Positions 16,368-44,285 of a DNA stretch of 44,984 bases are shown piece by piece. Source of the stretch: a virus. The DNA is taken from positions 1 to 44,984 of IMG/VR virus record IMGVR_UViG_3300021963_006641. One strand, written 5' to 3'. The position numbers were made by a program, and so were the translations under genes. Position 1 is the first letter of the stretch. The number at the start of each line of letters is the position of its first letter. The notes beneath the pieces were generated by a model, which saw only the letters and a list, made by a program, of their open reading frames with translations, did not search any database and was not told the DNA's origin.

Positions 16368-16754
16368 TTATTGTTCTTTTATAATGTCAATTATTTTATC
16401 CCTGCTATAGAATTTTTCCTTGATACTTTCAAGTGATTCACCAAAATGAAACACCAATCTTTCTTCATTGGCTGGTGATTCTTTTTCCCAACCCATCGCT
16501 ATAATTCTTTCAACGCAGTCGTACATAGAAAAATGATCGGATTCAAGCGCCAATTCCAATTCAATATCCTCACTTTTAATAATACCAACACAACTAATTT
16601 CATCTATTGGTGGTGGCGTTAAGCTACCGCTTGCAGCTGGAGTTACATCCCAATCCTCACCAAAATTTATTTCCATTGTCTTTGAGAATAAAAACTCATA
16701 GGTGAACTCACCTTTATAATTTTTATTGAGTGGGTTTATATAAGTTAATACCAT
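16368..16754 (-). CDS. Hypothetical virion-cluster protein
   Basis: The 128-residue acidic protein has a beta-rich N-terminal half (YINPLNKNYKGEFTYEFLF) and a helical C-terminal half (ESLESIKEKFYSRDKIIDII). It starts at the last base of the upstream structural gene (1-nt overlap), showing tight coupling. T4-like phages have small tail-completion and baseplate proteins in such places, but I cannot assign it to one. Confidence 0.7.
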   Translation of the reverse strand: MVLTYINPLNKNYKGEFTYEFLFSKTMEINFGEDWDVTPAASGSLTPPPIDEISCVGIIKSEDIELELALESDHFSMYDCVERIIAMGWEKESPANEERLVFHFGESLESIKEKFYSRDKIIDIIKEQ

Positions 16755-18271
16755 TATCCTTTCATTTTACTTGGGACAATGAATTTCAATTCTTCATTGT
16801 ATATGTTTATTTCACCATTAATTTCGACCTTAATATCAATAAAATATATTTGAGGTACTAACCATGTGGTATCAATATTAAAACTATTTGAATTATAAGT
16901 TTTATTAACTGGTTGCCAATCTAAAATATCAATTTTATTAGGGCCTTGTTTAATGTATAATTTATAAAACACATTTGTTACCACATCTTTTTGTGCTACA
17001 GTATATGGTTTTCTTAAATGGACATAAACTTTTCTGTTTTCACCTTGGTAAACCTTTTCCTCTTTCATTATACCACTTAACGAAACACCATATTTTATTG
17101 GTTCCATTATATCTGATCCAATTTGGTAGTAATCATTTTCTTCTTTCGTGATAAATTTAAGTTTAATATTGGGTCTATTAACACCGTTAACAAATATGTT
17201 TGACCAAATATCGCTATATTCGACATATGAGTCATATGTATTACCGTCAGCAAAAACCTCAACGTAGTAAACACCTCTTGTTTTTTGTTTAACCTCATAT
17301 TCCGAGCCACCTATTGTACATGTTGGTAATGAATCCAAATTAGTCATCTTACCATCAATATTAACGTATAGGTATAGCTTGTTTAATTTATTTAAATAAA
17401 AATCGACACGGTTATCGTCAATATAATCATCGTAAACTGTTTCAATAAAAGGTTCAAAAAATGTCTGGGTATGATTTGTAAATAAACCTAGGACATATGA
17501 TCGCTTATCGTCAAACACTATTGATTCATACTGATCTGTGTATTTTAAACAAAAACCATAATGATTTCCTGTAATACCAGTCGTTATTCCTGTGGTAATA
17601 CCCGTTGTAATTCCAGTTGTAATTCCAGTTGTGATACCCGTGGTAATACCCGTTGTAATTCCAGTTGTAATTCCAGTTGTGATACCCGTGGTTATTCCCG
17701 TTGTAATACCTGTTGTTATACCGTTAATTAATATATCATTTACAAAATCAGTAATATCCATTAAGATATCCTCATTACCCTTATCAAAGTGTTGGTTATC
17801 TAAAACATCACCGAGTGTACCACCAGGAGTTAAAAATAAATCAGCGGTTGTACCATAGAACCAATTTGATGCTTCCTCACTGAAATTTCGATCTTGTGGT
17901 CTAGAAAGTGGGCTTTGTTCAAAGTCATATCCCATACCCTCATCCCAAAATTCTTTAATTGGTCTTAATTCCAAGTTAAAGGAAGATGATCGATATTTAT
18001 CACTAAAAACTAAATTATTACTATCCGATAAAAAGGTAGTAACGTCAAAATTAGAAGTGTTTTTTATCTTAACATAATGTTTTACATTACTGTTAATAAT
18101 GATATCTTTATTAGCTACTTTGGTTTTTAACTCGTCAAACGAACAAAAAAACAAAAAACGACTAACTTTATCACCATAAAATAGTTCGGAGATCTGGTTT
18201 CGACCAGTATTAACCAACGAATCTCTAATTATAGTGTTATTTTTGTCAAAATATGTGCGATAAATACCCAT
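16754..18271 (-). CDS. Virion structural protein with a 12-copy GITT repeat
   Basis: The 505-residue protein has a mixed beta N-terminal part (1-185), twelve perfect Gly-Ile-Thr-Thr units plus a partial one (about 186-236), and a beta-rich C-terminal part with immunoglobulin-like features (YVHLRKPYTV, QIYFIDIKVEINGEINIYNEELKF). It lies among baseplate/tail genes and is probably a neck, baseplate or fibre component; I recognise no named family. The repeat has Gly every fourth residue, so it is not collagen-like. A related Thr/Gly stretch occurs in the structural protein at 42750-44285. A TATTTATA box sits only 3 nt before the ATG, closer than in other genes. Confidence 0.8.
   Translation of the reverse strand: MGIYRTYFDKNNTIIRDSLVNTGRNQISELFYGDKVSRFLFFCSFDELKTKVANKDIIINSNVKHYVKIKNTSNFDVTTFLSDSNNLVFSDKYRSSSFNLELRPIKEFWDEGMGYDFEQSPLSRPQDRNFSEEASNWFYGTTADLFLTPGGTLGDVLDNQHFDKGNEDILMDITDFVNDILINGITTGITTGITTGITTGITTGITTGITTGITTGITTGITTGITTGITTGITGNHYGFCLKYTDQYESIVFDDKRSYVLGLFTNHTQTFFEPFIETVYDDYIDDNRVDFYLNKLNKLYLYVNIDGKMTNLDSLPTCTIGGSEYEVKQKTRGVYYVEVFADGNTYDSYVEYSDIWSNIFVNGVNRPNIKLKFITKEENDYYQIGSDIMEPIKYGVSLSGIMKEEKVYQGENRKVYVHLRKPYTVAQKDVVTNVFYKLYIKQGPNKIDILDWQPVNKTYNSNSFNIDTTWLVPQIYFIDIKVEINGEINIYNEELKFIVPSKMKG
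17579..17722 (-). repeat. 12 x 12-bp tandem repeat with 48-bp higher-order period
   Basis: Twelve contiguous 12-bp units each encode GITT. Units 2-5 (from 17591) and 6-9 (from 17639) form two copies of a 48-bp super-unit, identical except for the first base; a third partial copy follows. The amino-acid unit is perfectly kept while the third codon positions differ in a phased way. This points to expansion by slippage or unequal recombination of the longer block under protein-level selection. Confidence 0.95.
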
Positions 18272-27504: not shown

Positions 27505-28149
27505 TTATTTTCTTATAAATAGTGTGTCCATATAATCAGTACCATACCGCCCACTCCATTTTTTTGCGGAATGTAACCTATAACCCAAGTTTTTTAATTT
27601 ATTCACGTATAGCCTCGACTTATTCTTTAATTCTGGGTCTATAAAATCATGAAACTCAACTGAGATTTGAGTTATCTTATTACAAATATCATTATTTAAA
27701 GAATCAATCAAATCATATTCAGCCCCCTCAATATCAATCTTAAGATAATCAATTTGATCTAAGTTATAATTTTTAATTAAATCCTCGATTGTGATTGTTT
27801 TAACTAAATAACTATTTGGATTTTCCAACCCCCATTTAAAATATTGATTTTCATGTCCAAGTATATTTCCAGCTTCATGGTTATCAACCTCAGTAAATAC
27901 TATATCTTGGTCACTATTCTTATATACGGCTTTATTAACCCAAATTAAATTAGTGTCATTATATTTTATTTTTAAATCATCATATAAAATTTTATTTGGT
28001 TCAACACCAATGTAAGATTTAATTGATGTGGCGCCAAAATGATCTAAACATTCAGCATAGAATCTACCATCGTTAGCACCTAGGTCAACAATGACAACAT
28101 CATTAATCTTATCAATATAAAAAGTATGATCTAATAAAGTTTTTATCAT
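27505..28149 (-). CDS. FkbM-family methyltransferase
   Basis: The 214-residue protein has motif I VVIVDLGANDGRFYAECL (18-35), the FkbM-type EPNKILYDDL, the long hydrophilic loop with NHEAGNIL, then TITIEDLIKNYNLDQIDYLKIDIEGAEYDLIDSL (from about 135), which is diagnostic of FkbM enzymes. These methylate sugar or polyketide hydroxyls and are frequent in glycan-decoration clusters. Its start overlaps the NeuB gene stop (ATGA), tying it to the sialic-acid-like genes. Confidence 0.88.
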   Translation of the reverse strand: MIKTLLDHTFYIDKINDVVIVDLGANDGRFYAECLDHFGATSIKSYIGVEPNKILYDDLKIKYNDTNLIWVNKAVYKNSDQDIVFTEVDNHEAGNILGHENQYFKWGLENPNSYLVKTITIEDLIKNYNLDQIDYLKIDIEGAEYDLIDSLNNDICNKITQISVEFHDFIDPELKNKSRLYVNKLKNLGYRLHSAKKWSGRYGTDYMDTLFIRK

Positions 28150-28982
28150 TTTCTAAGTGATTTTTGTTTGGTTAATTCACCACCAAAAACTTCTCTAGCT
28201 TTAGTTGGGATACTTAGAGATGCTTCTATATCACGGATACCTTTAACCAATTTAAATAACCCAGATGGCTCAATTGAAGCTGAATGATCCGAACCCCACA
28301 TATTTCTATCCAAAGTAATATGTCGCTCAATCCAAGTTACACCCATTGGAATTGTTGCAAATGTAGTGACCAAACCATATTCGTGACCACTATAACCAAT
28401 TTCTTTTTCTGGATACCAATTTTTAAGCCAATGGATATAATTTAAATTTAACTCCTCAACGGGACATGGATATGTTGAGTTGGTATGCATAATGACATTT
28501 GGGTCGCAACTTGAGGTGCAGAGTCTAACTTCACCCTCAGTGCTCATGCCAGTCGATATCATTAAATAATCTGATTTATCTTTTGCATACTGACATAATT
28601 CTAGATCTGTGATTAAAGCTGACGGTATTTTCATAACAACACCCAGATCAGTTTTATATTTTGTCATAAAATCAACAGACGATTTATCCCAAACTGATGC
28701 AAACCAATTAATACCGATTTCCTTACAGAATCTATCAATTTCATCATATTCTTTTTCACCAAACTCAGTTCTCCATTTATATTCTAAATAGGTCATTTCA
28801 CCCCATGGTGTTTGTCTAATTTTATTTTTTTGATCCTCTGGTACGCAAATATCTGGATTTCTTTTTTGAAATTTAACATAATCACAACCAGCGGCTTTTG
28901 CAACAAGAATCAAATCTTTTGCAATTTTTAAATCACCGTTGTGGTTAATACCAATTTCAGCGATAATTTTTACATTATTCAT
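28146..28982 (-). CDS. neuB: Nonulosonic (sialic-type) acid synthase, NeuB family, lacking the SAF domain
   Basis: The 278-residue protein condenses phosphoenolpyruvate with an amino-hexose such as ManNAc, as NeuB, LegI and PseI do. Signature residues are IAEIGINHNGD (7-17), YVKFQKR (35-41), MKIPSALITDLEL, MISTGMST, HTNSTYPCPVEELNL, IGYSGHE, and WIERHITLDRNMWGSDHSASIEP near the end. Typical NeuB proteins are about 340-350 residues with a C-terminal antifreeze-like (SAF) domain; this one stops at the linker, so only the TIM barrel is present. The start overlaps the GT8 fusion gene's stop. Which nonulosonic acid is made cannot be determined. Confidence 0.9.
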   Translation of the reverse strand: MNNVKIIAEIGINHNGDLKIAKDLILVAKAAGCDYVKFQKRNPDICVPEDQKNKIRQTPWGEMTYLEYKWRTEFGEKEYDEIDRFCKEIGINWFASVWDKSSVDFMTKYKTDLGVVMKIPSALITDLELCQYAKDKSDYLMISTGMSTEGEVRLCTSSCDPNVIMHTNSTYPCPVEELNLNYIHWLKNWYPEKEIGYSGHEYGLVTTFATIPMGVTWIERHITLDRNMWGSDHSASIEPSGLFKLVKGIRDIEASLSIPTKAREVFGGELTKQKSLRK

Positions 28983-30810
28983 AATATTTAGATTTTATTT
29001 TTGTTATTATTTTACCTGTGCTATTTTTATCTTTAATTAAATCAAATATATCTTGAATAATATCAGATTCATATATATTGATTTTAACACCGTTAATTAT
29101 CATTTTATTTAAAGCAAATATAATTAAATTTAAATCAAATTCAATCGTATGTGGTTTTAATTCATCAGTATATGGGTTTATTAATTTAGATGACCCGTGT
29201 TGTTTATATGAACCATCTGAATTTTTTTTCGTATATAAGTTATAACCTATAATATTTATCGAATTAATATCTTGTAAACTAAAAAATAATAACATACTAA
29301 CACCAGAAGTTGGTAGTGGTAGCTTTTTATTTTTTTTTCGTCTTTCATTTATTGACTTATATTGTGCTGACCTAAACATCATAATGTTAAAAGGATCAAC
29401 ATTTTTTATTTTCTTTTTGATTAGACCGTTGAATTTATTTTCCACATTTGTGGTCATTAGCCATTGTTTTTTCGGTTCAAAATTAGAATCTATTATAGAT
29501 TCCAGTAAGGTATTTTCTGGGGTTGAGCAATAATAATAGTCAATTTTAACAATATTATCGTATTTAAACCCCCAATTTGTTGTTACAATATTTGTATCAT
29601 TTATACGATCAGCTAATCTACTTAAATTATTATTATCAATACCCGAAGATATCAATGTTACGTCACTAATTTTATTAGAAAAGTTTTCATATCTTTCTCT
29701 ATAAGATGACCAGATCCCCTCAATAAATTTATAGTTTTTTTCGAATTCCTTTGTTTTTTCATCCCACGGTTTTTGACCAACATAATGTATAACTTTAATG
29801 TCTTTAATCGCTTTATTGAGATCATCAATATGGTCATCATCAAAACATCTTTTTAATAGATTATAGTCGGATGATAAAAATAAAACATCAAAATTTTTAA
29901 AATATGTATTCATTAATGTCTGATCCAAAAATTTCGGTTCAGATATTTTAGGGAATAGTTCTATCATATTTTTTACGTGATCATCTGATCTCATAAATTT
30001 ACCACTTAAAGATAAAAAACCTCCGTTTAATAAAATTGAGTCGTCATTTTTTGCCTTTATGGTTGTATCGGTAATATAATTTGAGGTATCTCTGGTTGCT
30101 ACAATATCATTTTCAATCCTAAAAAGGTCAAATAAATCACCAATAACTAAAGTATCGGAATCCAAATAAACAACCCTATCATAATCAATTAAATTAAATG
30201 TTTCTATCGTTAAAACAGATGGGATGAACCTGTGAAATGTTTTACTGACTTTTGATTTAAATAATTCAATAAGGTTAAAATAACCCTCTGTTTTTATTTT
30301 TTTGAATACAATCTTCCTGTATAACAACTTCAACTTTTCAATATTCTCATCAGATAAGTGTGATAAATCGTCATTGTGAAGGATAATTAGATCACCATCA
30401 AACCATTTATTGTTTTCTAAAAAAGAATTTAAAAAAACATAAAAATATTCCGAAAACCTATCGTCCAGTATCGAAACTAAAGCGTACTTATTTGGTAATT
30501 TTTTATTTATTTTTATGATGCTATTACTGACAACATCGTTTTGGTTTTTTTCAAAAAGTAACTCTTTAACTGTGTTTTGAATGGTTTCTTTATGGGTATT
30601 ATTTTTTGAGATTAAAACTGGGTTTTCTTTTTTAAAAGATTCTATCTTTTTACTTTTTTTATCATTTAAACCAACTTTAATAGATCTTTTACTTGGAATA
30701 AATTTTTCATCTCCAATTAATAACTCATCAACTTTTTTGTTAACCAGTACTGGAGCCTCCACAATTTTTTTTTGTATCGCCTTACTTTTATTTTTTATAA
30801 AAACACCCAT
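28975..30810 (-). CDS. Fusion of GT8 glycosyltransferase and a sialyltransferase-like domain
   Basis: The 611-residue protein has a Lys-rich N-terminal linker (1-105). Its GT8 domain (about 107-375) has the metal-binding LDSDT (216-220), LLNGGFLSLSG and IHYVGQKPW (341-349). The C-terminal domain (about 382-595) opens with a VTLISSG strand and holds PTSGVSMLLFFSLQDINSIN (from 500), then IIGYNLY. This is close to the TSGVYMxxxAIALGYKEIYLSGID pattern of GT42-type sialyltransferases such as Cst-II. GT8 enzymes usually add glucose or galactose, so one protein may add a hexose and cap it with a nonulosonic acid. Flanked by NeuA and NeuB genes with overlapping ends, which strongly supports a joint pathway. 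Confidence 0.78.
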   Translation of the reverse strand: MGVFIKNKSKAIQKKIVEAPVLVNKKVDELLIGDEKFIPSKRSIKVGLNDKKSKKIESFKKENPVLISKNNTHKETIQNTVKELLFEKNQNDVVSNSIIKINKKLPNKYALVSILDDRFSEYFYVFLNSFLENNKWFDGDLIILHNDDLSHLSDENIEKLKLLYRKIVFKKIKTEGYFNLIELFKSKVSKTFHRFIPSVLTIETFNLIDYDRVVYLDSDTLVIGDLFDLFRIENDIVATRDTSNYITDTTIKAKNDDSILLNGGFLSLSGKFMRSDDHVKNMIELFPKISEPKFLDQTLMNTYFKNFDVLFLSSDYNLLKRCFDDDHIDDLNKAIKDIKVIHYVGQKPWDEKTKEFEKNYKFIEGIWSSYRERYENFSNKISDVTLISSGIDNNNLSRLADRINDTNIVTTNWGFKYDNIVKIDYYYCSTPENTLLESIIDSNFEPKKQWLMTTNVENKFNGLIKKKIKNVDPFNIMMFRSAQYKSINERRKKNKKLPLPTSGVSMLLFFSLQDINSINIIGYNLYTKKNSDGSYKQHGSSKLINPYTDELKPHTIEFDLNLIIFALNKMIINGVKINIYESDIIQDIFDLIKDKNSTGKIITKIKSKYYE

Positions 30811-31442
30811 TAGTCATTCAACTTATTTAAATCATCGATTGTGTCAACATCAATTACATCCTCAATATTATAAAATATCGTATTATCATTATAGAGATTA
30901 TTATTTAAATCTTCGAGTTCGTTAACGTTAAATATACATATAAAATGCGACAACTCAAATACTTTTGGATAATCTTGTCTTCTGTATAAATTATGCGGTG
31001 TTAATTGTTTACCCCGAATATTATCCACATCCAACAAATATAAATATGGGTGAGTACCTTTAATTTCTTTTTTACATAAAAGACTTTTAGCTAAATTATC
31101 ATTGTAAAAATTAAGCGCTTTATTAATATCCAACCAGGTTCTTTCTGGGTAAGTTAAATATAGCATTATAACCACATCAGGGTCGGTGATTAATTCTCGT
31201 TTCTTAAGATCTAACATTACATCTTTTGTGGATGTATCATCTAGAGCTAATTCTGGATCCCTATTAACACAATTAACACCATATTCTTTACCGATTTCTA
31301 ATAAAATCTCATCGTCTGTTGTTAAGATGGTATCTTTTAATATGTTTTTAGGGAGAATATCTAAGGTTCTAGATATTAATTTTCTATTTTTAAATGGTAA
31401 CCCCTTTGAATTTCGCCTAGCTGGGATGACGTATTTAATCAT
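30810..31442 (-). CDS. neuA: CMP-nonulosonate (sialic acid) cytidylyltransferase, NeuA-like
   Basis: The 210-residue protein begins YVIPARRNSKGLPFKN (3-19), the CMP-sialate synthetase signature of a Rossmann-type nucleotidyltransferase. Then come TILTTDDEILLEIGKEYGVNCVNRDPELALDDTSTKDV, YLTYPERTWLDINKAL and NLYRRQDYPKVFEL, as in NeuA and PseF enzymes. It would activate the NeuB product with CTP to CMP-nonulosonate for a transferase. Shorter than many NeuAs (about 220-230). The stop overlaps the fusion gene by 1 nt (TAATG) and the start overlaps the upstream Maf-like gene. Confidence 0.9.
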   Translation of the reverse strand: MIKYVIPARRNSKGLPFKNRKLISRTLDILPKNILKDTILTTDDEILLEIGKEYGVNCVNRDPELALDDTSTKDVMLDLKKRELITDPDVVIMLYLTYPERTWLDINKALNFYNDNLAKSLLCKKEIKGTHPYLYLLDVDNIRGKQLTPHNLYRRQDYPKVFELSHFICIFNVNELEDLNNNLYNDNTIFYNIEDVIDVDTIDDLNKLND

Positions 31443-32101
31443 TGGTAAATATGGTTTTCTAAATTTAACGAAACAAATGGGTTTAATGATAATACATTCG
31501 ATCCATAATGTTTTTTAATCCCATTTTTAACAATAATGGTTTGTGATTCAATAACCTTTAACCAATTTTTATACTGCTTCCAATCTTGCCACGGAGTGTC
31601 CTTGATACTGTTATAATAACCCTTAAAAGTCATTTCACCGTCAATGGTACCACAATCATGACCAACAAGAATAATATTTTTGGCTCCCATATATGCTGCT
31701 ATATGTATTGCTGATGTTATTGTTGAAAAACTGACGACAATTTTATCCGTACCGAATATCGATGTATCAATATTAGTATGTCCGTTATCCAAATGTTCAA
31801 AATAATATAAATTATCGTGCTCTATTTTATTGGTGTTTAATTTATTTTCACCAGAATTTAAATTACCACTATCGTATTCAGAAACAAATACAATTGATTC
31901 GCTATCTAGGCTATCTTTAATAAATTTAGTTTCTTTCCTAACAAGGTAATCACACCAAATTTTTTTATACGCTTGATTTACACCGATTAAAATTTTATCA
32001 TCGAAAAAAGTCTCATCTATGAAATCCAACGATTTACCAGAAGCTATAATGTATATATCCTCACCCTTATGGATATCCTTAAATTTTTTAATTGTTTCCA
32101 T
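31439..32101 (-). CDS. DUF115/Maf-like putative nonulosonate glycosyltransferase
   Basis: The 220-residue protein has a Rossmann-like start IYIIASGKSLDFID (15-28) and TITSAIHIAAYMGAKNIILVGHDCG. This arrangement is typical of the DUF115 family, which includes flagellin Maf proteins that attach pseudaminic or legionaminic acid and the 6-hydroxymethylpterin pyrophosphokinase MptE. Next to neuA and neuB a sugar-transfer role is favoured. It covers only the core domain of Maf. Stop overlaps neuA (ATGA) and start overlaps the upstream GT2-like gene. Confidence 0.65.
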   Translation of the reverse strand: METIKKFKDIHKGEDIYIIASGKSLDFIDETFFDDKILIGVNQAYKKIWCDYLVRKETKFIKDSLDSESIVFVSEYDSGNLNSGENKLNTNKIEHDNLYYFEHLDNGHTNIDTSIFGTDKIVVSFSTITSAIHIAAYMGAKNIILVGHDCGTIDGEMTFKGYYNSIKDTPWQDWKQYKNWLKVIESQTIIVKNGIKKHYGSNVLSLNPFVSLNLENHIYQ

Positions 32102-32771
32102 CTATCTTAATAGGTAACTCGTCTTTATATTTTTTTTCAAATAAAATTTTATTCTCTTCCCACATATCGTTTGTTTCCCCCACTGACATATGGGTTACCC
32201 TGATGTCTGTTATAACACCAATATCAACACCATCTAAATAATTTGGAAAGCAAAATGATAAATCATAAAAATGAAAACCTTTAAAATCCTCATCAAAATG
32301 ATGCTCTAATTTTTTTCTGTTAACAACAAAAAAAAGACCATCAAGTACAATCATATCTTTAACTTTATCACCCTGATCAGTGGAAAAATTACTAGTCCAT
32401 TTTTTAATGCCGTCAGTATGGTTTACAATACCGTGCATAGATTCTCTAATAGACCACCAAGTACCATTAATTAAATTATCTGTCCCAGCTAAACCAATAA
32501 CACCGTATCTTGGGTTTTTCTTAAAATGGTTTAATATTTTTTTACCCCAATCATTTGTTTCAAATATTAAATCGTCATGACAAAAAACAATTATATCATT
32601 TTTTGCGTCTTCTAAAACTTGATTGTAAAGTTCGGTCAATGATTGCTGACCTTGATTTTGGTAAGTTAATACCTCAATTTTATCCAAGCCACAGGTAGTT
32701 TTAACATGCGTCATGTAATTTGGGTCAATTTCCCTGGTTGAATATGCTATTGTTATGCTATTGTACATCAT
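32088..32771 (-). CDS. StrF-type GT2 glycosyltransferase
   Basis: The protein of about 227 residues starts at MYNSITIAYSTREIDPNY; an alternative start 7 codons upstream (32792) would overlap the next gene further. It has VLEDAKNDIIVFCHDDLIF (the DD donor site), VIGLAGTDNLINGTWWS, DGLFFVVNRKKLEHHFDEDF and HFYDLSFCF, the features of the GT2 subfamily with a StrF domain (Glyco_tranf_2_5). These transfer sugars in antibiotic or surface glycan pathways. It overlaps both neighbours, so it is part of the same tightly coupled operon. Specificity unknown. Confidence 0.82.
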   Translation of the reverse strand: MMYNSITIAYSTREIDPNYMTHVKTTCGLDKIEVLTYQNQGQQSLTELYNQVLEDAKNDIIVFCHDDLIFETNDWGKKILNHFKKNPRYGVIGLAGTDNLINGTWWSIRESMHGIVNHTDGIKKWTSNFSTDQGDKVKDMIVLDGLFFVVNRKKLEHHFDEDFKGFHFYDLSFCFPNYLDGVDIGVITDIRVTHMSVGETNDMWEENKILFEKKYKDELPIKIDGNN

Positions 32772-33051
32772 TTCTTTGTTTTCTATCTTCAATGAAAGCT
32801 AGAACTGGTAAATGTTCATTTTCAAAACGTATAAATCTAAATCTAGAGCCTATTTCATCTAGCTCACGCTCTAAAAATGTGATTGCTTTTAAATCATCTG
32901 TATTTGGCACATAAACTAAAGCATACACAACTTTATCACCAACCCCCATTCTTTTACCAGACCATACTGTTTTAAATTCAATACGATCTAAAACATCTTG
33001 AGTTATGTTAGGGTAATAATCACATTGGAATTTAAAATATTGTCTCATCAT
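32758..33051 (-). CDS. Hypothetical protein between dUTPase and glycosyltransferase genes
   Basis: The 97-residue basic protein begins MMRQYFKFQCDYYP and has YALVYVPNTDDLKAITFLERELDEIGSRFRFIRF. The pattern is alternating strand and helix, consistent with a small alpha/beta fold. Overlaps dUTPase by 4 nt (ATGA) and the downstream gene by about 14 nt. Not recognised; possibly an auxiliary nucleotide-metabolism protein by position. Confidence 0.65.
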   Translation of the reverse strand: MMRQYFKFQCDYYPNITQDVLDRIEFKTVWSGKRMGVGDKVVYALVYVPNTDDLKAITFLERELDEIGSRFRFIRFENEHLPVLAFIEDRKQRNDVQ

Positions 33052-33635
33052 ACTCCAGTAGAACCAAACCCACCAGCACCCCTATCAGACGTATCTAATG
33101 TATTGACTCTAGCGAACTTGGTTGTTTTTCTAGTTTGAACTGGTGATATAACGCCTTGCGCAATCCTATCACCGTTTTTTATTGTAAAAGGTTCTTCACC
33201 TGTGTTAAATAAAATAACCATAACCTCACCACGATAACCAGAATCTACCGTACCTGGTGTGTTTAAAACAGTTATCCCATTTTTTAAAGCCAATCCGCTT
33301 CTGGGTCTAACTTGTAATTCAAATCCAATTGGTATTTGGAAATGTAGTCCAGTTGGTACTAACACACGTTTAAGTGGCTCAACAACAATAGTCGCATCTT
33401 GTGGTAAATTAGCCATGAAATCAAAACCACTATCACCTTCTTTTTGGTAGGATGGGTCTGGATTATTTGAATTGTTTATGATTTTAATTTTTAATCTCAT
33501 GCTATTATCGGATGGATCGTATTCCCAATCCTCCATACCAACATGGTTAAAAATTTCGCTCATTTGGTTTTTTTCTTCATCAGATAAAAAATCACCAACG
33601 TTCATCTCATTTAATTTATTAAAATCAAAATTCAT
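33048..33635 (-). CDS. dut: dUTPase (trimeric) with N-terminal extension
   Basis: The 195-residue enzyme hydrolyses dUTP to dUMP and keeps uracil out of phage DNA. All five trimeric-dUTPase motifs are present: SGFDFMA (69-75), VRPRSGLALKNG (109-120), LNTPGTVDSGYRGEV (124-138), DRIAQGVI (156-163) and DRGAGGFGSTG (184-194), including D131 and Y134. About 45-55 extra residues at the N-terminus have a helical stretch (EEKNQMSEIFNHVGMEDW) with no known function. Standard dUTPases are about 145-150 residues. Confidence 0.95.
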   Translation of the reverse strand: MNFDFNKLNEMNVGDFLSDEEKNQMSEIFNHVGMEDWEYDPSDNSMRLKIKIINNSNNPDPSYQKEGDSGFDFMANLPQDATIVVEPLKRVLVPTGLHFQIPIGFELQVRPRSGLALKNGITVLNTPGTVDSGYRGEVMVILFNTGEEPFTIKNGDRIAQGVISPVQTRKTTKFARVNTLDTSDRGAGGFGSTGV

Positions 33636-33636
33636 A

Positions 33637-34212
33637 TTATGCTTTTGTTTTTTCTTCCATAATAGCCAATTTAATAGCCATTTTTAATATTTCACCCAAA
33701 GATGATGTATGCCATTCGGCCATTTTATCACCCTGGCCTTTATCATAATTCAATATAGCTTGATATTCGATATCTGTTAACCAACCATCGCATTGGTTAT
33801 TGCTTATCATATAATAAACGCTACGCTCGCCAATTGTCATAGATGTCAAATCCTCATTAAATTCATACATCTTACCCTGATTTTTGATATGCCACTCACT
33901 TTTACAAGGTGTATATAAACCAGTTTTACCTATACCATGTAATAGGCTAACACGAATTACACTTTCTTTAGTTTGTTTTAACGCCTCGGGTAACATTTCA
34001 TTTAATTTTACAGCATAACCAGCAACCCTTATTAAATGATCAACCAAGCCACCTGGGAATGCGTTATGTAAATTTAACATTGTTGATGCGGGTGCCTCAA
34101 ATAAACCCATATCGGCTAACTTATCAACTAGGTCAATATGGCAAACGTTGTATGCCTTTATTGATGCGTAATACGCTTTTTTGTTTTTTTCAATTTGTGT
34201 TGCGTCTATCAT
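33637..34212 (-). CDS. HD-like phosphohydrolase with an altered HD motif
   Basis: The 191-residue protein resembles YhaM/YfbR-type HD hydrolases: NLHNAFPGGLVDHLIRVAGYA (about 47-67), the region LLHGIGKTGLY (93-103), and a downstream helix MAEWHTSSLGEILKMAIKLAIM. In active members the second metal site is HDxGK; here it reads HGIGK, so the metal-ligand Asp is Gly. It may be inactive or use another ligand. Near dUTPase, a nucleotide-pool or RNA role is possible. 1-nt gap to dUTPase, and its start overlaps the GT4 gene stop. Confidence 0.7.
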   Translation of the reverse strand: MIDATQIEKNKKAYYASIKAYNVCHIDLVDKLADMGLFEAPASTMLNLHNAFPGGLVDHLIRVAGYAVKLNEMLPEALKQTKESVIRVSLLHGIGKTGLYTPCKSEWHIKNQGKMYEFNEDLTSMTIGERSVYYMISNNQCDGWLTDIEYQAILNYDKGQGDKMAEWHTSSLGEILKMAIKLAIMEEKTKA

Positions 34213-35435
34213 TTCATTAAATTTTTATAAATTTCATATCTATTTTTGGTGACGTTATTTAAATCGTACTTATCTTTAACAGTTTCGTATAATTTTTCAC
34301 CAAGATCCTTAATCATTTCTGGATTATCAACTAATTTTTTAGCAAATTTAGACCATTGTTTATGATTTTTTGATGGGTCGACCAATAAACAATTACCATT
34401 CGGGTTAATTGCACCGCCTCGGTCAATTGCACTAATTAAATCAATTTGATAAGGCCCGTAATTTTGAGCTATTAACGCTTTTTTGTGGAAACCAGCCTCA
34501 ATAACTTTAAGTTGCGATTTATATTTGTTAAAGGTACTTTCATTTAATGGTGCCATAGCCACATCAAAATGGTTATAACCATTAGCATATTGATTAATAG
34601 CCTTAGTCCAAATACGTCTGTATGGTTTTGATTTTGTATCGAAATTTGGATCGTCAATAAAACTCATCAAATAAGTTAAATATTCTCTATCAGTTTCTAA
34701 GTTTTTATAGTTATTAGTTAAGAAACATTCGTACATAAACCAAGTTGTTTCTTGTGGGCGCATTGGTCTGGTTTCAACTTGTTTTGTGTCTGGGTTAACA
34801 AATTGGACATTACCTCTGGTATCAAAACCACATAAAACAATCTGAGTTGGCTTACCCAAACCATTTTGTTTTGTACCTAAATCACGCAAATGTTCCATAT
34901 CTTTAATATGCGATGACCCACCAAGCCAACCAAATCTAATCATATCCGATTCAGTTTCTTTTGGTTTGAATTGATCTTCATTGGGATCAACAGCATTTGG
35001 CAAAACTACAACATTTTTATTAAATTTCCTAACTTCAGCTGCTAATATTTCAGTTGGAACTGTAACTAGGTCAGCCATTCTAATACAATCTAAAATTGTT
35101 TCGGGTATTTTATTAATCTTAGCTATATGATATAAACCATGTGATGGATCCAAATTCCAATGGTCATCAGTATCAATAATAACTTTTAACCCCAATCTTT
35201 TAATTGTGTTAATTATTGCGACAGCATCTTTATGGTTATGTTGTGGTAGTCTGTGAATAAACACAGCATCAAACCCCTTTAGATAATTAATGTCATTAAA
35301 ATCAATTTGGTGATTGATTTCAACAAAAAAATCTTCTGGGAAATTATTTTGTAAATTTACATGTGGATCAACACATCTAAATTTGCCTGAACCAGCTCTA
35401 TCTCCTGGTGCTACTAAAATCTTAATCTTTGACAT
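34209..35435 (-). CDS. GT4-type glycosyltransferase
   Basis: The 408-residue GT-B protein has a Gly-rich N-terminal loop (LVAPGDRAGSGKFRCVDPH), VFIHRLPQHN, ADLVTVPTEILAAEVRKFNKNVVVLPNAVDP (about 125-155), MIRFGWLGGSSHIKDMEHL and FNKYKSQLKVIEAGFHKKALIAQNYGP (donor site, E in KVIEAG). The C-terminal helices (WSKFAKKLVDNPEMIKDLGEKL) are usual for the family. Donor and acceptor unknown. The 5' leader contains two mutually exclusive hairpins (35440-35480). Confidence 0.88.
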   Translation of the reverse strand: MSKIKILVAPGDRAGSGKFRCVDPHVNLQNNFPEDFFVEINHQIDFNDINYLKGFDAVFIHRLPQHNHKDAVAIINTIKRLGLKVIIDTDDHWNLDPSHGLYHIAKINKIPETILDCIRMADLVTVPTEILAAEVRKFNKNVVVLPNAVDPNEDQFKPKETESDMIRFGWLGGSSHIKDMEHLRDLGTKQNGLGKPTQIVLCGFDTRGNVQFVNPDTKQVETRPMRPQETTWFMYECFLTNNYKNLETDREYLTYLMSFIDDPNFDTKSKPYRRIWTKAINQYANGYNHFDVAMAPLNESTFNKYKSQLKVIEAGFHKKALIAQNYGPYQIDLISAIDRGGAINPNGNCLLVDPSKNHKQWSKFAKKLVDNPEMIKDLGEKLYETVKDKYDLNNVTKNRYEIYKNLMK

Positions 35436-35439
35436 CTAT

Positions 35440-35480
35440 AAATTGTTTGTTTCCCCAATAATAAACAATTTTTGGGGAAA
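35440..35480 (-). promoter_or_regulatory. Two mutually exclusive 9-bp hairpins in a leader
   Basis: In the minus-strand RNA, TTTCCCCAA (35480-35472) pairs with TTGGGGAAA (35458-35450). Alternatively AAATTGTTT (35471-35463), inside that loop, pairs with AAACAATTT (35448-35440), which ends 4 nt before the ATG of the GT4 gene. The arms interlock (a-b-a'-b') with linkers of 0, 4 and 1 nt, too short for both stems at full length, so the RNA should choose between two folds. Confidence 0.65.
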
Positions 35481-35503
35481 AAACAAGTTAAGAATAAAAA
35501 TAA

Positions 35504-35896
35504 TTACTGACTATCACCTCTTATAACACGATAAGAATCATCATCAAAATGTTCTGTTGAAACTTCAAATACAATACCATCGGTGATGGCAATTAACTGG
35601 TGTGGTTGGCCTGGAAACTGTCTAACTGAGTCACCTTCACGTAATTCAATTTCATGTGTTTCAGCTGTATTTGTGTCTATGTAGCGATATAAAAACACAC
35701 CTTCTTTTACATACCAAGTCTCATCTTTGATAAGGTGATAATGCATTGAAAATCTAGCGCCTTCTTTAAAGCAAAGTAATTTGCCGCAATATAATTCGTT
35801 ATTTTCGAATATAACCTCATGTCCCCATCCTTTGGGTACGTTACATTCTTTACACTCTAGGGCGTTTATTACTTTTGGTTGTTGTTTGTGTCCCAT
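35504..35896 (-). CDS. Cupin-domain protein (phosphomannose-isomerase-like)
   Basis: The 130-residue single cupin has motif 1 FSMHYHLIKDETWYVKEG (His residues and Glu as metal ligands) and motif 2 FPGQPHQLIAITDG. It resembles the cupin domain of bifunctional mannose-1-phosphate guanylyltransferase/isomerases and sugar-nucleotide epimerase-like cupins. In front are two Cys pairs (ECKECNVPKGWG) that may bind zinc. The neighbour is an HldE-C-like nucleotidyltransferase whose gene overlaps it by 28 nt; a sugar-isomerisation role is plausible. Substrate unknown. Confidence 0.82.
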   Translation of the reverse strand: MGHKQQPKVINALECKECNVPKGWGHEVIFENNELYCGKLLCFKEGARFSMHYHLIKDETWYVKEGVFLYRYIDTNTAETHEIELREGDSVRQFPGQPHQLIAITDGIVFEVSTEHFDDDSYRVIRGDSQ

Positions 35897-36276
35897 GTTT
35901 CCATGATTTTTGTTGTTGAGTGGTCTATACGATCAAAATATATTATTTCATTTGCGTATTCACCACCAATTATTTTTTTACCTCGATAATCCGATCCGAT
36001 TACCAAATAATCTGGTTTGTTTTTTTTAAGTAATTCTTTTAATTCATCATCAGAATCAAAAACAATTACATTATAAACACCCCTTATGGACATTAAATTG
36101 TAAGCACGTTCAAATTGATTGTGGTACGGTCTGCTGTCTCCCTTTAGTTCACGAACCCTTCTATCACTATCAATACCAACTATTAATCTACCATGTGTTG
36201 CGGCTAGATTTAGTAATTGAAAGTGTCCGTTGTGTAACACATCAAATGTTCCGTTAACCCAAACTTTATTTTCCAT
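35869..36276 (-). CDS. HldE-C-like sugar-phosphate nucleotidyltransferase
   Basis: The 135-residue protein has the nucleotidyltransferase signature VNGTFDVLHNGHFQLL with the HNGH variant of HxGH, then DYLVIGSDYRGKKIIGGEYANEIIYFDRIDHSTTKIME. The order matches the C-terminal domain of HldE (RfaE), which adenylylates heptose-1-phosphate to ADP-heptose, and related glycerol-3-phosphate cytidylyltransferases. I start at the ATG at 36276, since an in-frame TTG at 36282 would add only two residues. With the TibC-like enzyme at 190-2334 it could provide ADP-heptose. The kinase half of HldE is not in this window. The promoter region carries the terminator of the next gene and an AT-rich TATTTATT. Confidence 0.82.
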   Translation of the reverse strand: MENKVWVNGTFDVLHNGHFQLLNLAATHGRLIVGIDSDRRVRELKGDSRPYHNQFERAYNLMSIRGVYNVIVFDSDDELKELLKKNKPDYLVIGSDYRGKKIIGGEYANEIIYFDRIDHSTTKIMETWDTNNNQK

Positions 36277-36290
36277 ACACAATAATAAAT

Positions 36291-39152: not shown

Positions 39153-42100
39153 TTAAACTGGGACTTCTTTTCCTAATCCAGGGATGGTAAAATGTATATC
39201 ACCCTCAAACCAAAAGTCTGGTTTATATGTATGTTTATCCCAAAATACTAGCTCATTGTCTGATGGTGTAAACAATTCGTCAATCGTATCCTGATCCTTT
39301 TCGTTATTCGGTTGATTATTAACTAAAGACAATTCAGAACGTAACCAAGATTGTTTTTGGTCTGGATTTGTGATTATTATATTATTTCTAACCGTTTTGT
39401 CAAAAACAACTAATAAACCTTTAATCCTTGAATTAAACATATCTAAATATTTGTCTACATTATACTCACCCAAAGTATTTAAACCCTTATCAATAATCTC
39501 AGAATCAACTAATTTAGCATAAATTTCACCATTTTTATCTTCTTTGACATCACCATGTGATTTTTTATTGCCATTGTTAACATAATATAACGTATCACCT
39601 AAATTAACGTTTAAATTATTTTTTATCGCCAATTCCATGTGGGCTTGTTTTGGTAGTGGTTTACCATTTTTATTTGTACCTCTATTAATGTATTGTTGGA
39701 TTGTTTTTTTAACTCTAGCTTTTGTTGCAATTTTAGCCAACGGTATCTGTTTGTTGTATATCTTATCAACATAACTGTAATACATCATAACAAAATCATA
39801 ACCTTTATCATTTAACAATAAGACAATTGATTTATCCAAAAATTCTTCAATATAGGTTGGTAATTTTTTTGATTTAATGGTATTACCAGTTAAACTAACA
39901 CTTCCATCATCTTCAAGTAAAGCGTAATTTTTACGGGCTAGATTAATCGTTGATGGCCACATTCCATCTAAACCTAGCGCCATTTCACCTTTCATGTATA
40001 AATCATTAAATTCGGCTACAACAGCACTAACACCACGGTATTCCTTTCCAGCTACAACCTCATCGTTATAACCCTTACCAACGTAATAAAAATGATCCTC
40101 ACCAATTTCTGGCGCCATAAAGTTTACACCGTCCGTATCTAAAACCGTTGGTGTATACCCCTTTTTAACGAAAAATTTAACCATCAATCTTAGATATTGT
40201 CTAGCACGGCATGTAATACCCTCAGCAACATCCATTTCAGCCCATGGGAAAGCATTTGGTGCTCCTAACGCACCGAACATTGAGTTGATAAATATTTTTA
40301 ACGGTAATTGTTTACGTTTATATAAAGACTCGAGTTGGTAATTACCTTGTTTTTTGTATTGTTTAGCCAAATCTTTAGCTTTAAAGCGTTCAGAGTGAAA
40401 ATACTTTAACATTGATTTTAAAACCCCAGTAATGTCAACGCCAGGAAATACATCATGAGCCAACTGAATTGCTGGATATAGTGAGTTAAAGTCCATTTTG
40501 CGAAGATTGGTTGAAAAACCAACTTTTAATAACCTAGATAAACCACCAGTAAAATCTCTTTTGGTGTCGGATTCAGGTACAGCTAAACCATTTTCATATG
40601 ACCATGTTAACATAAGCATCTTCCACAAACCAGCTGTTCCCATTGTTGATACACGTTGGTATGTTGTTGGTATTAATTTAGCCAACATGAACGATGATTG
40701 GTTGTAGATATTGTCTACTTCCATTGTTTCCCATAAATCATCCATTAGATATCGTTTAACAATGAATTGACCGTCAACTTCTTGATATTGGTTTATAAAA
40801 TTTTGTAGAGCCGATATGCTTGCTTTTAAGAATGCATATGTCTTAGGTGCCTTAATGTCCAACATGGCATAACCAGTACCAATACCTCTGCTTGGTATGA
40901 CAATTGTCTTACCCTCTTTAATTTCTTTAATAATACGATTAATAGCTAAATTAATCTTGTTTTTATTCAAATCGAATTCACTGTCGGTATAGTAGGAATC
41001 TTGCGTATTATCTGGTTTTTTCTTAGTTGGGATACCAATAGCATTTTTTTCACCACGCATTTCTTTTGCTTGCCCAGCATACCCATCTTTTTCATCGTTA
41101 TCACCAAATATGAATACTTTATCGGGATTATTTTTAACATAATGTCTAGTAATAACATCCATATATTCTATAGCTGGTTTAGTCTCGCAATACGAACCAG
41201 TTATATCCTCAAAATAGTATTTTTTATTATCTTTCCAAATGGGGCCTATCTTATCACCTTTAATATAAACACGATTTTTCTTATTAACCTTATTGTACTT
41301 ACAAACATACTTCAAAGAAGCAGATTTCATGCTAGAGTCAATAGCTTGAGCTTTTCTAGCCGAGTGTATAATATCAATATTTGAATAACCAAACATATTA
41401 ACTTGGGTATAATCTTCGACTTCATTACCCAATTTAAGTATGGTTTCTCTTGTGTTTATTTTTTCATCACTTTTTAATGTTTTAGCTATTTGTGTAATAT
41501 CAATACCCAATTTTTCACATCTTTTAAATATGAAAGGCCAGTCAAAGTTAGCACTATTATACCCACCAATAATCGGTGGTTTTAAATAATCAATTGCCGC
41601 AAAGAATTTAGCTATTGCCGCAACTTCTGTAGCATCAGCGTTATCGCCCTCAATCTCGCAATCAAATAATTCTTCAAACCCTTTATTAGTTTTGCAACCA
41701 ACTAAGAATATCCTAGAAGTTTCTGGATCTAGACCTGTTGTTTCCAAGTCAAATACAAATTTCTCTAAATCGTTATAATCCTCATAACCCTTAAATAAGC
41801 GTTTGCCTGTTGATATTAGATATTGCTCAACGGGGGATAAAATTAAGAAATGACCTCTAATATTATTTCTTTCATCGTAAATACCACGATAAAAACCACC
41901 GTTTCTAAAAAAATCTAACATCCGCTCATACCCCTGGTCGCAGGTTAATAAGTATCTATAACCATTTAGAAGTCTTGGGTGTTCATCATGTTTTAGGGTT
42001 GTGATACTAATACCGTATTCTTTTCTGGCGTTTTGTATAGCCAATTCGTTATTACCGTAAAAATTTAAAGTTTTCTTTAACTCATTTAAGTTTTTCATCC

Positions 42101-42275
42101 AAAGAAATGCCTTAAGTGGTTCAGTCTCAACGGTTTTTGAACCATCGGGCATTTGCTTAAATTTGTAAATTAGATTAGTACTTTTATCGTATTCGATATT
42201 AACGATGTATTTTTCATCATCGTGACCTTGTAAAAATTTCTCAACTATATCCAATGATATTTTATAATCGCTCAT
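39153..42275 (-). CDS. 43: Family B DNA polymerase with a macro-like insert in the exonuclease domain
   Basis: The 1040-residue replicative polymerase has Exo I FDLETTG (D176, E178), Exo II GGYNSANFD (N240, D245), Exo III in RYLMDDLWE (Y509, D513), motif A DFNSLYP (D595), motif B KIFINSMFG (K660 to N664) and motif C DTDG (D713, D715). Between Exo II and Exo III, about residues 371-495 match no polymerase: YVKNNPDKVFIFGDNDEKD, GYAGQAKEMRGEKNAIGIPTKKKP and VIPSRGIGTGYAMLDIKAP. This follows the pattern of stand-alone macro-like (ADP-ribose-binding type) phage proteins. Polymerase identification is secure; the macro-like reading is strong by motif and its ligand unknown. A host-type promoter lies upstream, and its start codon falls in a hairpin arm. 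Confidence 0.95.
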   Translation of the reverse strand: MSDYKISLDIVEKFLQGHDDEKYIVNIEYDKSTNLIYKFKQMPDGSKTVETEPLKAFLWMKNLNELKKTLNFYGNNELAIQNARKEYGISITTLKHDEHPRLLNGYRYLLTCDQGYERMLDFFRNGGFYRGIYDERNNIRGHFLILSPVEQYLISTGKRLFKGYEDYNDLEKFVFDLETTGLDPETSRIFLVGCKTNKGFEELFDCEIEGDNADATEVAAIAKFFAAIDYLKPPIIGGYNSANFDWPFIFKRCEKLGIDITQIAKTLKSDEKINTRETILKLGNEVEDYTQVNMFGYSNIDIIHSARKAQAIDSSMKSASLKYVCKYNKVNKKNRVYIKGDKIGPIWKDNKKYYFEDITGSYCETKPAIEYMDVITRHYVKNNPDKVFIFGDNDEKDGYAGQAKEMRGEKNAIGIPTKKKPDNTQDSYYTDSEFDLNKNKINLAINRIIKEIKEGKTIVIPSRGIGTGYAMLDIKAPKTYAFLKASISALQNFINQYQEVDGQFIVKRYLMDDLWETMEVDNIYNQSSFMLAKLIPTTYQRVSTMGTAGLWKMLMLTWSYENGLAVPESDTKRDFTGGLSRLLKVGFSTNLRKMDFNSLYPAIQLAHDVFPGVDITGVLKSMLKYFHSERFKAKDLAKQYKKQGNYQLESLYKRKQLPLKIFINSMFGALGAPNAFPWAEMDVAEGITCRARQYLRLMVKFFVKKGYTPTVLDTDGVNFMAPEIGEDHFYYVGKGYNDEVVAGKEYRGVSAVVAEFNDLYMKGEMALGLDGMWPSTINLARKNYALLEDDGSVSLTGNTIKSKKLPTYIEEFLDKSIVLLLNDKGYDFVMMYYSYVDKIYNKQIPLAKIATKARVKKTIQQYINRGTNKNGKPLPKQAHMELAIKNNLNVNLGDTLYYVNNGNKKSHGDVKEDKNGEIYAKLVDSEIIDKGLNTLGEYNVDKYLDMFNSRIKGLLVVFDKTVRNNIIITNPDQKQSWLRSELSLVNNQPNNEKDQDTIDELFTPSDNELVFWDKHTYKPDFWFEGDIHFTIPGLGKEVPV

Positions 42276-42339: not shown

Positions 42340-42750
42340 TTAATTGATAAAATTAATATCACTTTTAACGAAACTATCCAAAACATGGATGTATAATTCC
42401 TCAGATATTGGTACGATTAGACTGCCGTTTGGTTGTAATTGCGAATTTAAGAAAATAATTTTAAATTCACCAATATATATTCCTGGTTTTTCGGTATCTT
42501 CTGATGTGAAATCGTAAACAATGTAATATTCCTTATCACTACCACCGTTTATATCACAAGGATCTTTTAAGACAATCCTAGCTTCTTTGTTAGCTATCTT
42601 ATAAATTCCAGTGACTTGGTCTTTCATTGAAAAGGTTATAACTGAATTTTCAAGCATTTCATCAAAATGCTTATAATCATTTCTACCATCATGGTATAAT
42701 CTCATTTTTAAAACGGGTAATTCTGAATATTGTCTAATTGAAAAAACCAT
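42340..42750 (-). CDS. Virion structural protein, small beta-rich (baseplate/fibre type)
   Basis: The 136-residue protein resembles the N-terminal domains of phage baseplate upper proteins: LKMRLYHDGRNDYKHFDEMLENSVITFSMKD, then GIYKIANKEARIVLKD, YYIVYDFTSEDTEKPGIYIGEFKIIF and a final ISEELYIHVLDSF. This is a beta-sandwich with a typical GxYxGEFxI strand. It begins at the last base of the upstream gene (1-nt overlap). The upstream promoter-like TATTTATT lies 14 nt before the next gene start, not this one. Confidence 0.7.
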   Translation of the reverse strand: MVFSIRQYSELPVLKMRLYHDGRNDYKHFDEMLENSVITFSMKDQVTGIYKIANKEARIVLKDPCDINGGSDKEYYIVYDFTSEDTEKPGIYIGEFKIIFLNSQLQPNGSLIVPISEELYIHVLDSFVKSDINFIN

Positions 42751-44285
42751 TACATCATATTTTTAATAAATACTCTCCTACCACCCTTTGGGTAATAAAG
42801 ATTGTAATTTTGTAGCTTATTTTTTATAATATCTCTAATCTCAACAATATACAGTGGTATTGAGTACATCTCAATAAATCTAACACCACCTTCAAATGTA
42901 CCAGCAAAGAATTTTTCTATAATACCGTTAACACGTTTAGTTGGATCTAAATAAACAGCATCAAATAGCCCCTGGGTACCACCACCAAAAGAAATATTAA
43001 ATGGTACACTTTCCTGATATTTAACCTCAGTGTCCAATTCATGCGGTATAAATTCTCTAAATCTAGGGTTCCTGTAAACCGTAAAACCATTTAAACTCAT
43101 TGATAATGTACCATTTCGATAGGCACCGTATTTTAACAAGCATTTTGTTTCGTAACTAAAATCCCTTTCAAATGTTACACTAAAAAATAAAAATTTAGTT
43201 TCATTTTGGTTGATAACGGGGTATCTAGTGTATGATTCTTCAATAGTAAAATATTTTGTAATAATCTTGGCGACAGTAAAATCATCGCAATCGTTACTAA
43301 AATCAATAAATGAGTTATTGGTTATAGTTGTAACTTCTTGTGTTGCACCCGTATAACAAGAATCTGTTGCATATATTGTTCTGTAACCAATTCTACCGTC
43401 TGGTAATATTCTAACGCCAAAACAATTGTCAATAATGTCTTTATACCCACTAAAATAAGTTAATTTTGTGGATCCAGTTACATTTGATGTCGTGAGATTT
43501 AAAATACCATCATTACCATAACCGTTAACAATATTTGTATCAGTTGCATTTCTACCTGCATATGATATTCCATCTTTAGTGTAAAAATACCCAGCGTAGG
43601 GTGAGCCATTTAAAAGGTACACACCACTATTAGTGTATAAATTATTGGTATCTAGAAATGTAAATTGATACTCATCTTTAAATCTAGTTATTTCAACGTC
43701 AGTAAATTCAGAATATTTGTTTTCAGCTCTGGTTCCAATGTAATAAATAAAACCATCATTATTGAAAATATCATTTAATGTTGTACCACTAGTTACGCCA
43801 GTTGTAGCCCCAGTGGTGTCACCAGTTAATGGAAAATGTAACATTAAATTTGTTGTCCAACCTTTTCTCATTCTAGTTGGCATAAATTCAACTGGATAAC
43901 CATGCAATTTAAAAAACCCTTGGTAAAACCCGCCAAAAAGTTGATTATAACCTAGTTTTGGCGAAATATCGTATATTAAATTAGATGTATATCCAGATAC
44001 CGCATGTAGACATAATGTATCGCCACTATTAACAACATATTCAACTTGTGAATCTGGAACTATGTCACCAGCACCAGGTGGTATAAAAAAATTGTCATAA
44101 CCAGTTAATGATATGTTAGGTAATAAAACATCACTAGATTGTCTAATACCCACAATACTACAAAGATCTAATGTTACGTCAATATAAAATAATTTGAACG
44201 CATCATAATCTCTATTGAATGGCCTACAATCTTTGGTTAAAACAAAATCGTAATATTCCCCTTTTTCTAACTCGGTACTATACAT
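42750..44285 (-). CDS. Virion structural protein with a Thr/Gly repeat and lectin-like part
   Basis: The 511-residue protein starts MYSTELEKGEYYDFVLTKDC and has TGDTTGATTGVTSGTT (about 155-170), a short degenerate relative of the GITT repeat in the 16754-18271 protein. The flanking regions are beta-rich with aromatic and Gly residues (GGFYQGFFKLHGYPVEFMPTR; FISG-type strands; GGGTQGLFDAVYL). A LamG/concanavalin-like sandwich or adhesin part is plausible. Probably a neck, baseplate or fibre protein that may touch the cell. Preceded by a TATTTATT box 14 nt upstream, inside the previous coding sequence... see that entry. Named family not recognised. Confidence 0.72.
   Translation of the reverse strand: MYSTELEKGEYYDFVLTKDCRPFNRDYDAFKLFYIDVTLDLCSIVGIRQSSDVLLPNISLTGYDNFFIPPGAGDIVPDSQVEYVVNSGDTLCLHAVSGYTSNLIYDISPKLGYNQLFGGFYQGFFKLHGYPVEFMPTRMRKGWTTNLMLHFPLTGDTTGATTGVTSGTTLNDIFNNDGFIYYIGTRAENKYSEFTDVEITRFKDEYQFTFLDTNNLYTNSGVYLLNGSPYAGYFYTKDGISYAGRNATDTNIVNGYGNDGILNLTTSNVTGSTKLTYFSGYKDIIDNCFGVRILPDGRIGYRTIYATDSCYTGATQEVTTITNNSFIDFSNDCDDFTVAKIITKYFTIEESYTRYPVINQNETKFLFFSVTFERDFSYETKCLLKYGAYRNGTLSMSLNGFTVYRNPRFREFIPHELDTEVKYQESVPFNISFGGGTQGLFDAVYLDPTKRVNGIIEKFFAGTFEGGVRFIEMYSIPLYIVEIRDIIKNKLQNYNLYYPKGGRRVFIKNMM

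Follow-up and report, generated by a model that had tools for sequence, protein, structure and literature searches.

A DUF7831 domain nested in the proofreading exonuclease of a phage family-B DNA polymerase

The locus described here raises the question of what an additional domain is doing inside the exonuclease of a replicative DNA polymerase. The window, by which we mean the whole stretch of 44,984 nucleotides of viral DNA that was analysed, encodes on its minus strand a polymerase in which the original prediction, made from the sequence alone, placed a macro-like domain between Exo II and Exo III. The identity of this domain, its origin and its possible role are considered in turn.

The polymerase and its extra domain

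The 1040-aa protein is matched by Pfam to the exonuclease and polymerase domains of family-B DNA polymerases (PolB), with DUF7831 between them. The gene and its core motifs, the latter placed by alignment of homologues, are:

39153..42275, minus strand: family-B DNA polymerase with nested DUF7831, 1040 aa, ATG start (Pfam, fold)
41736..41756, minus strand: Exo I, D176 and E178
41538..41567, minus strand: Exo II, N240 and D245
40737..40751, minus strand: Exo III (YLMDD), Y509 and D513, directly after the insert
40473..40499, minus strand: polymerase motif A, D595
40260..40310, minus strand: polymerase motif B, K660 and N664
40125..40145, minus strand: polymerase motif C, D713 and D715

The protein carries the catalytic residues of Exo I-III and of motifs A-C on a PolB fold, and these residues are identical in all of the 18 aligned homologues. 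Judged from them, the exonuclease and polymerase centres of the insert-bearing polymerase look intact, as had been predicted. Among PHROGs the polymerase belongs to phrog_262 (DNA polymerase) and the insert to phrog_2072 (function unknown). When the whole polymerase was compared with PDB by sequence and by fold the best matches were archaeal-type PolBs, e.g., KOD and 9N. The full-length model has a mean pLDDT of 88, with blocks of about 89-95 in the insert.

The features of the insert are:

40773..41180, minus strand: structured insert, residues ~366-501, its limits estimated from the gap in the alignment and from the model
40821..41168, minus strand: Pfam DUF7831 (PF25176), residues 370-485, Pfam match
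41097..41108, minus strand: FGDN, residues 390-393, with conserved N; first of the candidate ligand loops (motif alignment)
41067..41084, minus strand: GYAGQA, residues 398-403, glycine loop, GxGGQ in the family (motif alignment)
41022..41036, minus strand: GIPTK, residues 414-418; K418 corresponds by motif only to the catalytic DarG K80/TARG1 K84
40872..40895, minus strand: PSRGIGTG, residues 461-468, second glycine loop (motif alignment)

The extra domain between Exo II and Exo III was thus correctly seen, and it is DUF7831: the Pfam match to residues 370-485 (E=1.4e-42, 145 bits against a curated cut-off of 27) runs across the full profile, from position 2 to 117 of 118. The domain modelled in isolation gave a confident fold (pLDDT 92), and in the full-length model short linkers join it to the polymerase. 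The insert is a discrete, independently folding domain, placed before Exo III. Nine residues (N393, G398, Q402, R407, N411, T417, K418, G466 and P477) are near-invariant whether the domain occurs as a stand-alone protein, within a giant protein or in PolB. DUF7831 is a phage-borne domain, alpha/beta as modelled, with a conserved candidate pocket of the form N-GxGGQ-TK-PxxGxGxG.

Some other features of the window should be mentioned. A 12-bp tandem repeat of ~13 copies at 17570-17722 encodes (GITT)n within a 505-aa ORF (16754-18271, minus strand), and the ORF at 42750-44285 has a shorter GATTGVTSGTT run. The region 27505-36282 contains, by eye, genes of sugar or cell-surface type (NeuB-like, CMP-sugar synthetase-like, glycosyltransferases, cytidylyltransferase, cupin).

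Distribution, origin and selection of the insert

An intein is recognised by a Hint fold, an N-terminal Cys or Ser and a C-terminal Asn with a nucleophile. The window insert has neither a Hint fold nor splice residues, no endonuclease or splicing motif was found in it, and the real inteins of relatives lie elsewhere; the intein explanation is rejected, in line with the prediction. Two of the relatives (L019 6001-10158 and L020 6001-10062) have intein-like inserts of ~350 aa with an endonuclease-like part, located at motif C (DTD).

The prediction named an alignment with related polymerases as a check and an ordinary loop of the family as the outcome that would speak against it. Among polymerases of viral contigs the insert carriers have at least 64% identity, whereas the insertless ones, of which more than 100 were examined, have at most 55%. 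In the latter the sequence runs from '..NPETGKY' through a short loop to '..DGQFIIKKYL'; the insert is missing in L005-L020 and in every further insertless relative compared. A general loop of the polymerase family is rejected, the insert being absent outside one clade. A tree was computed for 88 non-redundant polymerases after the insert had been cut out, and in it a branch with support 100 separates all carriers from the rest. This single clade indicates that the domain was gained once, and the insertion of DUF7831 into PolB is best placed in the common ancestor of these large phages. In the tree of DUF7831 itself L028, L029, L034, L090, L097 and L098 are PolB inserts. One carrier (L003 5929-9273) has its polymerase split across two frames (797 + 339 aa), possibly by a frameshift or an assembly error.

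In each of the ten long insert-bearing contigs the polymerase insert is the sole copy of DUF7831, and no DUF7831 gene was found in the contigs of 19 insertless relatives. Relocation of an earlier stand-alone gene is rejected on these 19 contigs, which may be incomplete, and acquisition from outside is therefore likelier than relocation.

Within the clade the insert evolves under purifying selection. Its median dN/dS is about 0.24 compared with 0.086 for the core, and the mean identity is 55% for the insert and 71% for the core. A neutral or selfish insertion of no benefit to the phage would agree with the sporadic distribution of DUF7831: of 190 genomes sampled from the class one carried it, namely G030, around which the sample had been centred. 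The neutral reading is hardly probable at all in view of the purifying selection, the retention of the domain throughout a divergent clade and the lack of endonuclease and splicing motifs.

All 15 signature residues of the stand-alone members are kept in 16 of 23 insert-bearing sequences, the window included. The other seven (L224-L227, L236, L238, L239) have one or both glycine loops altered and retain the domain. K418 is a lysine in all insert-bearing polymerases but one, which has K418R. These observations bear on a structural or interaction role, which postulates that DUF7831 is a rigid spacer, a wall guiding the DNA or a docking surface for clamp, helicase or SSB, and that the ligand chemistry is vestigial. 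The loss of glycine loops from a domain that is kept, the faster evolution relative to the core and the short linkers are all in its favour. The complete signature in the majority of carriers would be needless for a mere spacer, however, and the constancy of K418 also speaks against it. The structural role is somewhat unlikely, and due to the changed glycine loops of the subclade it stays the main rival.

Resemblance to macrodomains and the contexts of DUF7831

The term "macro-like" could be upheld in part. Pfam Macro (PF01661) matches none of 69 family members, even at E<=1. A Foldseek search of the domain model against PDB gave no significant match, the highest TM-score among the PDB matches listed being that of the macrodomain TARG1 (0.46, E=0.86, probability 0.25). 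In BFVD, Tk.4 of Acinetobacter phage 133 reached a TM-score of 0.50, which is not significant, and the significant Foldseek matches are limited to DUF7831 members and unnamed proteins. The fold search proposed in the prediction yielded a confident model and no significant PDB match. A search of PDB with the DUF7831 sequence profile gave chance TIM matches only. Profile-profile alignment by hhalign was run against MacroD-type and DarG/TARG1-type profiles with 200 shuffles of the columns and, as a control, a reversed alignment; the DarG/TARG1-type profiles gave P=0.0095, and the reversed alignment scored equally. Assignment to the macrodomains by sequence profile is rejected since the signal is no higher than the reversed control, and together with the PF01661 and Foldseek results this means that macro homology is not established.

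What stands is the order of the motifs. In DUF7831 Asn, GxG, Gln, TK and PxxGxGxG follow each other as they do in the DarG/TARG1 pocket, the catalytic Lys included; DarG contacts ADP-ribose by N22, Q34, T79 and G117-G121 and has K80 as catalytic residue (PMC5179494; PMC9411070). The resemblance of DUF7831 to macrodomains, as suggested by motif order and NAD-related gene context, is partly supported.

The insert was predicted to read like a stand-alone phage protein, and DUF7831 does occur as such: the family comprises small proteins encoded on their own by phages, chiefly those of Alphaproteobacteria and cyanobacteria, together with rare bacterial copies, giant-virus proteins and parts of phage proteins of very large size. 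We sampled 78 stand-alone loci, many of them redundant, chosen by DUF7831 only and irrespective of neighbours. A family-A DNA polymerase (PolA) gene adjoins DUF7831 in 20 of the 78, often with an ATGA-type overlap, and the DUF7831 tree divides these into three independent lineages or gains. A NAMPT and NadM-Nudix pair is found beside DUF7831 in five of the 78 (L061, L062, L063, L069 and L070, an NAD-salvage pair), in two lineages and sometimes on the opposite strand. Other neighbours are SNF2 or UvrD helicases, gp32, gp59, RNA ligase and rIIA/rIIB, and in L125 (2271-3140) the CBASS inhibitor Acb3 lies just downstream of the DUF7831 gene. That such neighbours are enriched is our judgement rather than a statistical result.

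Around the window polymerase itself no NAD or ADP-ribose genes flank the gene within the window. A search of the ten insert-bearing contigs gave no further Macro gene, and NADAR and NAMPT in a single contig each.

Several individual loci deserve a comment. In L086 (3681-6140) a PolA fused to a uracil-DNA glycosylase (UDG) domain adjoins DUF7831 and a ParB-N/DNA-methylase gene. An intein-like segment seems to interrupt the PolA upstream of the stand-alone DUF7831 in L131 (536-2989), and ORF lengths suggest a similar interruption in L130, L133 and L111. In L074, L081, L105, L076, L104, L109, L129, L136 and L067 DUF7831 is part of a very large, open-ended ORF, with lengths from 1200 to more than 2100 aa; one such ORF matches the virion structural family phrog_16227. 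Acidobacteriota bins (L047, L048, L050, L052, L053) have long proteins (>850 to >1490 aa, open-ended) with DUF7831 near the N-terminus, at residues 226-348 in L050, and the one in L047 has a DUF488 match too. Two apparent fusions were rejected: in the huge phage LR745206 the supposed polymerase fusion is really DUF7831 starting an unrelated 405-aa protein, and the 'helicase' matches of Caulobacter phages are adjoining genes.

The gene contexts bear on two further explanations. The first hypothesizes that DUF7831 is a processor or sponge whose targets are free immune signals derived from NAD, or toxic derivatives of ADP-ribose, and that fusion to a polymerase merely secures early and abundant expression. 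It accommodates the stand-alone genes beside NAMPT/NadM-Nudix pairs and Acb3 as well as the very large phage proteins, including the match to a virion structural family. The repeated link to DNA polymerases, seen with PolA in three lineages and again in the PolB insert, is unexpected for a purely soluble target, and we find this explanation unlikely. The second is the sensor of the original prediction, in which the host NAD or ADP-ribose level regulates the polymerase or its proofreading via the insert. The location inside the exonuclease, directly before Exo III, speaks for such a switch, but the DUF7831s next to PolA are separate proteins and an intramolecular switch is therefore not the common denominator. 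We regard regulation by host NAD metabolism as possible but very unlikely; the gene contexts agree better with counter-defence at the fork.

A proposed counter-defence at the fork and comparison with known systems

The DarTG system attaches ADP-ribose to ssDNA and blocks replication of the phage genome; some E. coli phages escape it by mutations in their DNA polymerase (PMC11481870). We propose tentatively, as something possible rather than probable, that the DUF7831 insert is a counter-defence module, gained once, which binds or hydrolyses an ADP-ribose or NAD group at the replication fork. The proposal postulates that the pocket would bind or hydrolyse an ADP-ribose- or NAD-derived group in a DarG/TARG1-like manner, which does not imply macro membership. 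The covalent tether to the polymerase would let the domain act at the fork, where it could remove or tolerate ADP-ribose adducts put on ssDNA by DarT-like host defences, and replication and proofreading would then carry on. What we infer for the insert is its ligand, its chemistry, its action on DNA and where its pocket lies with respect to the DNA.

The PolA adjacency, the NAMPT/NadM-Nudix pairs, Acb3 and the rIIA/rIIB neighbours of stand-alone DUF7831 favour counter-defence. Weighing against the ADP-ribose reading are the lack of a significant macro match, the altered glycine loops of one subclade and a window polymerase without NAD or ADP-ribose neighbours. A stronger version, in which the polymerase itself contains a domain for DNA de-ADP-ribosylation or ADP-ribose tolerance and this domain represents a new, minimal family of macro-like enzymes, is doubtful; if it were true, the replisome would repair defence-inflicted ADP-ribose adducts while copying.

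In literature searches, which were not exhaustive, no paper naming DUF7831 was found, and no DNA polymerase containing an ADP-ribose-type or macro-type domain came up. Such domains in phages are described as typically stand-alone (PMC9503650). The DUF7831-in-polymerase architecture appears to be new, the component families being already known.

Compared with known systems, the window polymerase shares Exo I-III and motifs A-C with archaeal-type and phage PolBs (KOD, 9N, Pfu; insertless L005-L020, L140-L219, L245-L296) and matches the fold of the archaeal PolBs in PDB with E about 1e-30, whereas the extra domain before Exo III is absent from all compared PolB homologues outside the insert clade. 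DNA polymerase inteins are, like the window insert, extra sequence inside a polymerase gene. Members of PF25176 DUF7831/PHROG 2072 match the insert over the full length and have the same pocket motifs, but those described are stand-alone or within giant proteins, of unknown function, and the one in the window is nested in a DNA polymerase. The DarG/TARG1 (ALC1-like) macrodomains share the motif order and include the PDB entry of highest TM-score among those listed, but are without significant sequence, profile or fold similarity to DUF7831. Phages are known to escape DarTG by polymerase mutations or by DarT inhibitors (PMC11481870); a polymerase with its own NAD- or ADP-ribose-linked domain would, if true, provide the uncharacterised DUF7831 family of phages and giant viruses with a function and be a third strategy against defences of this type.
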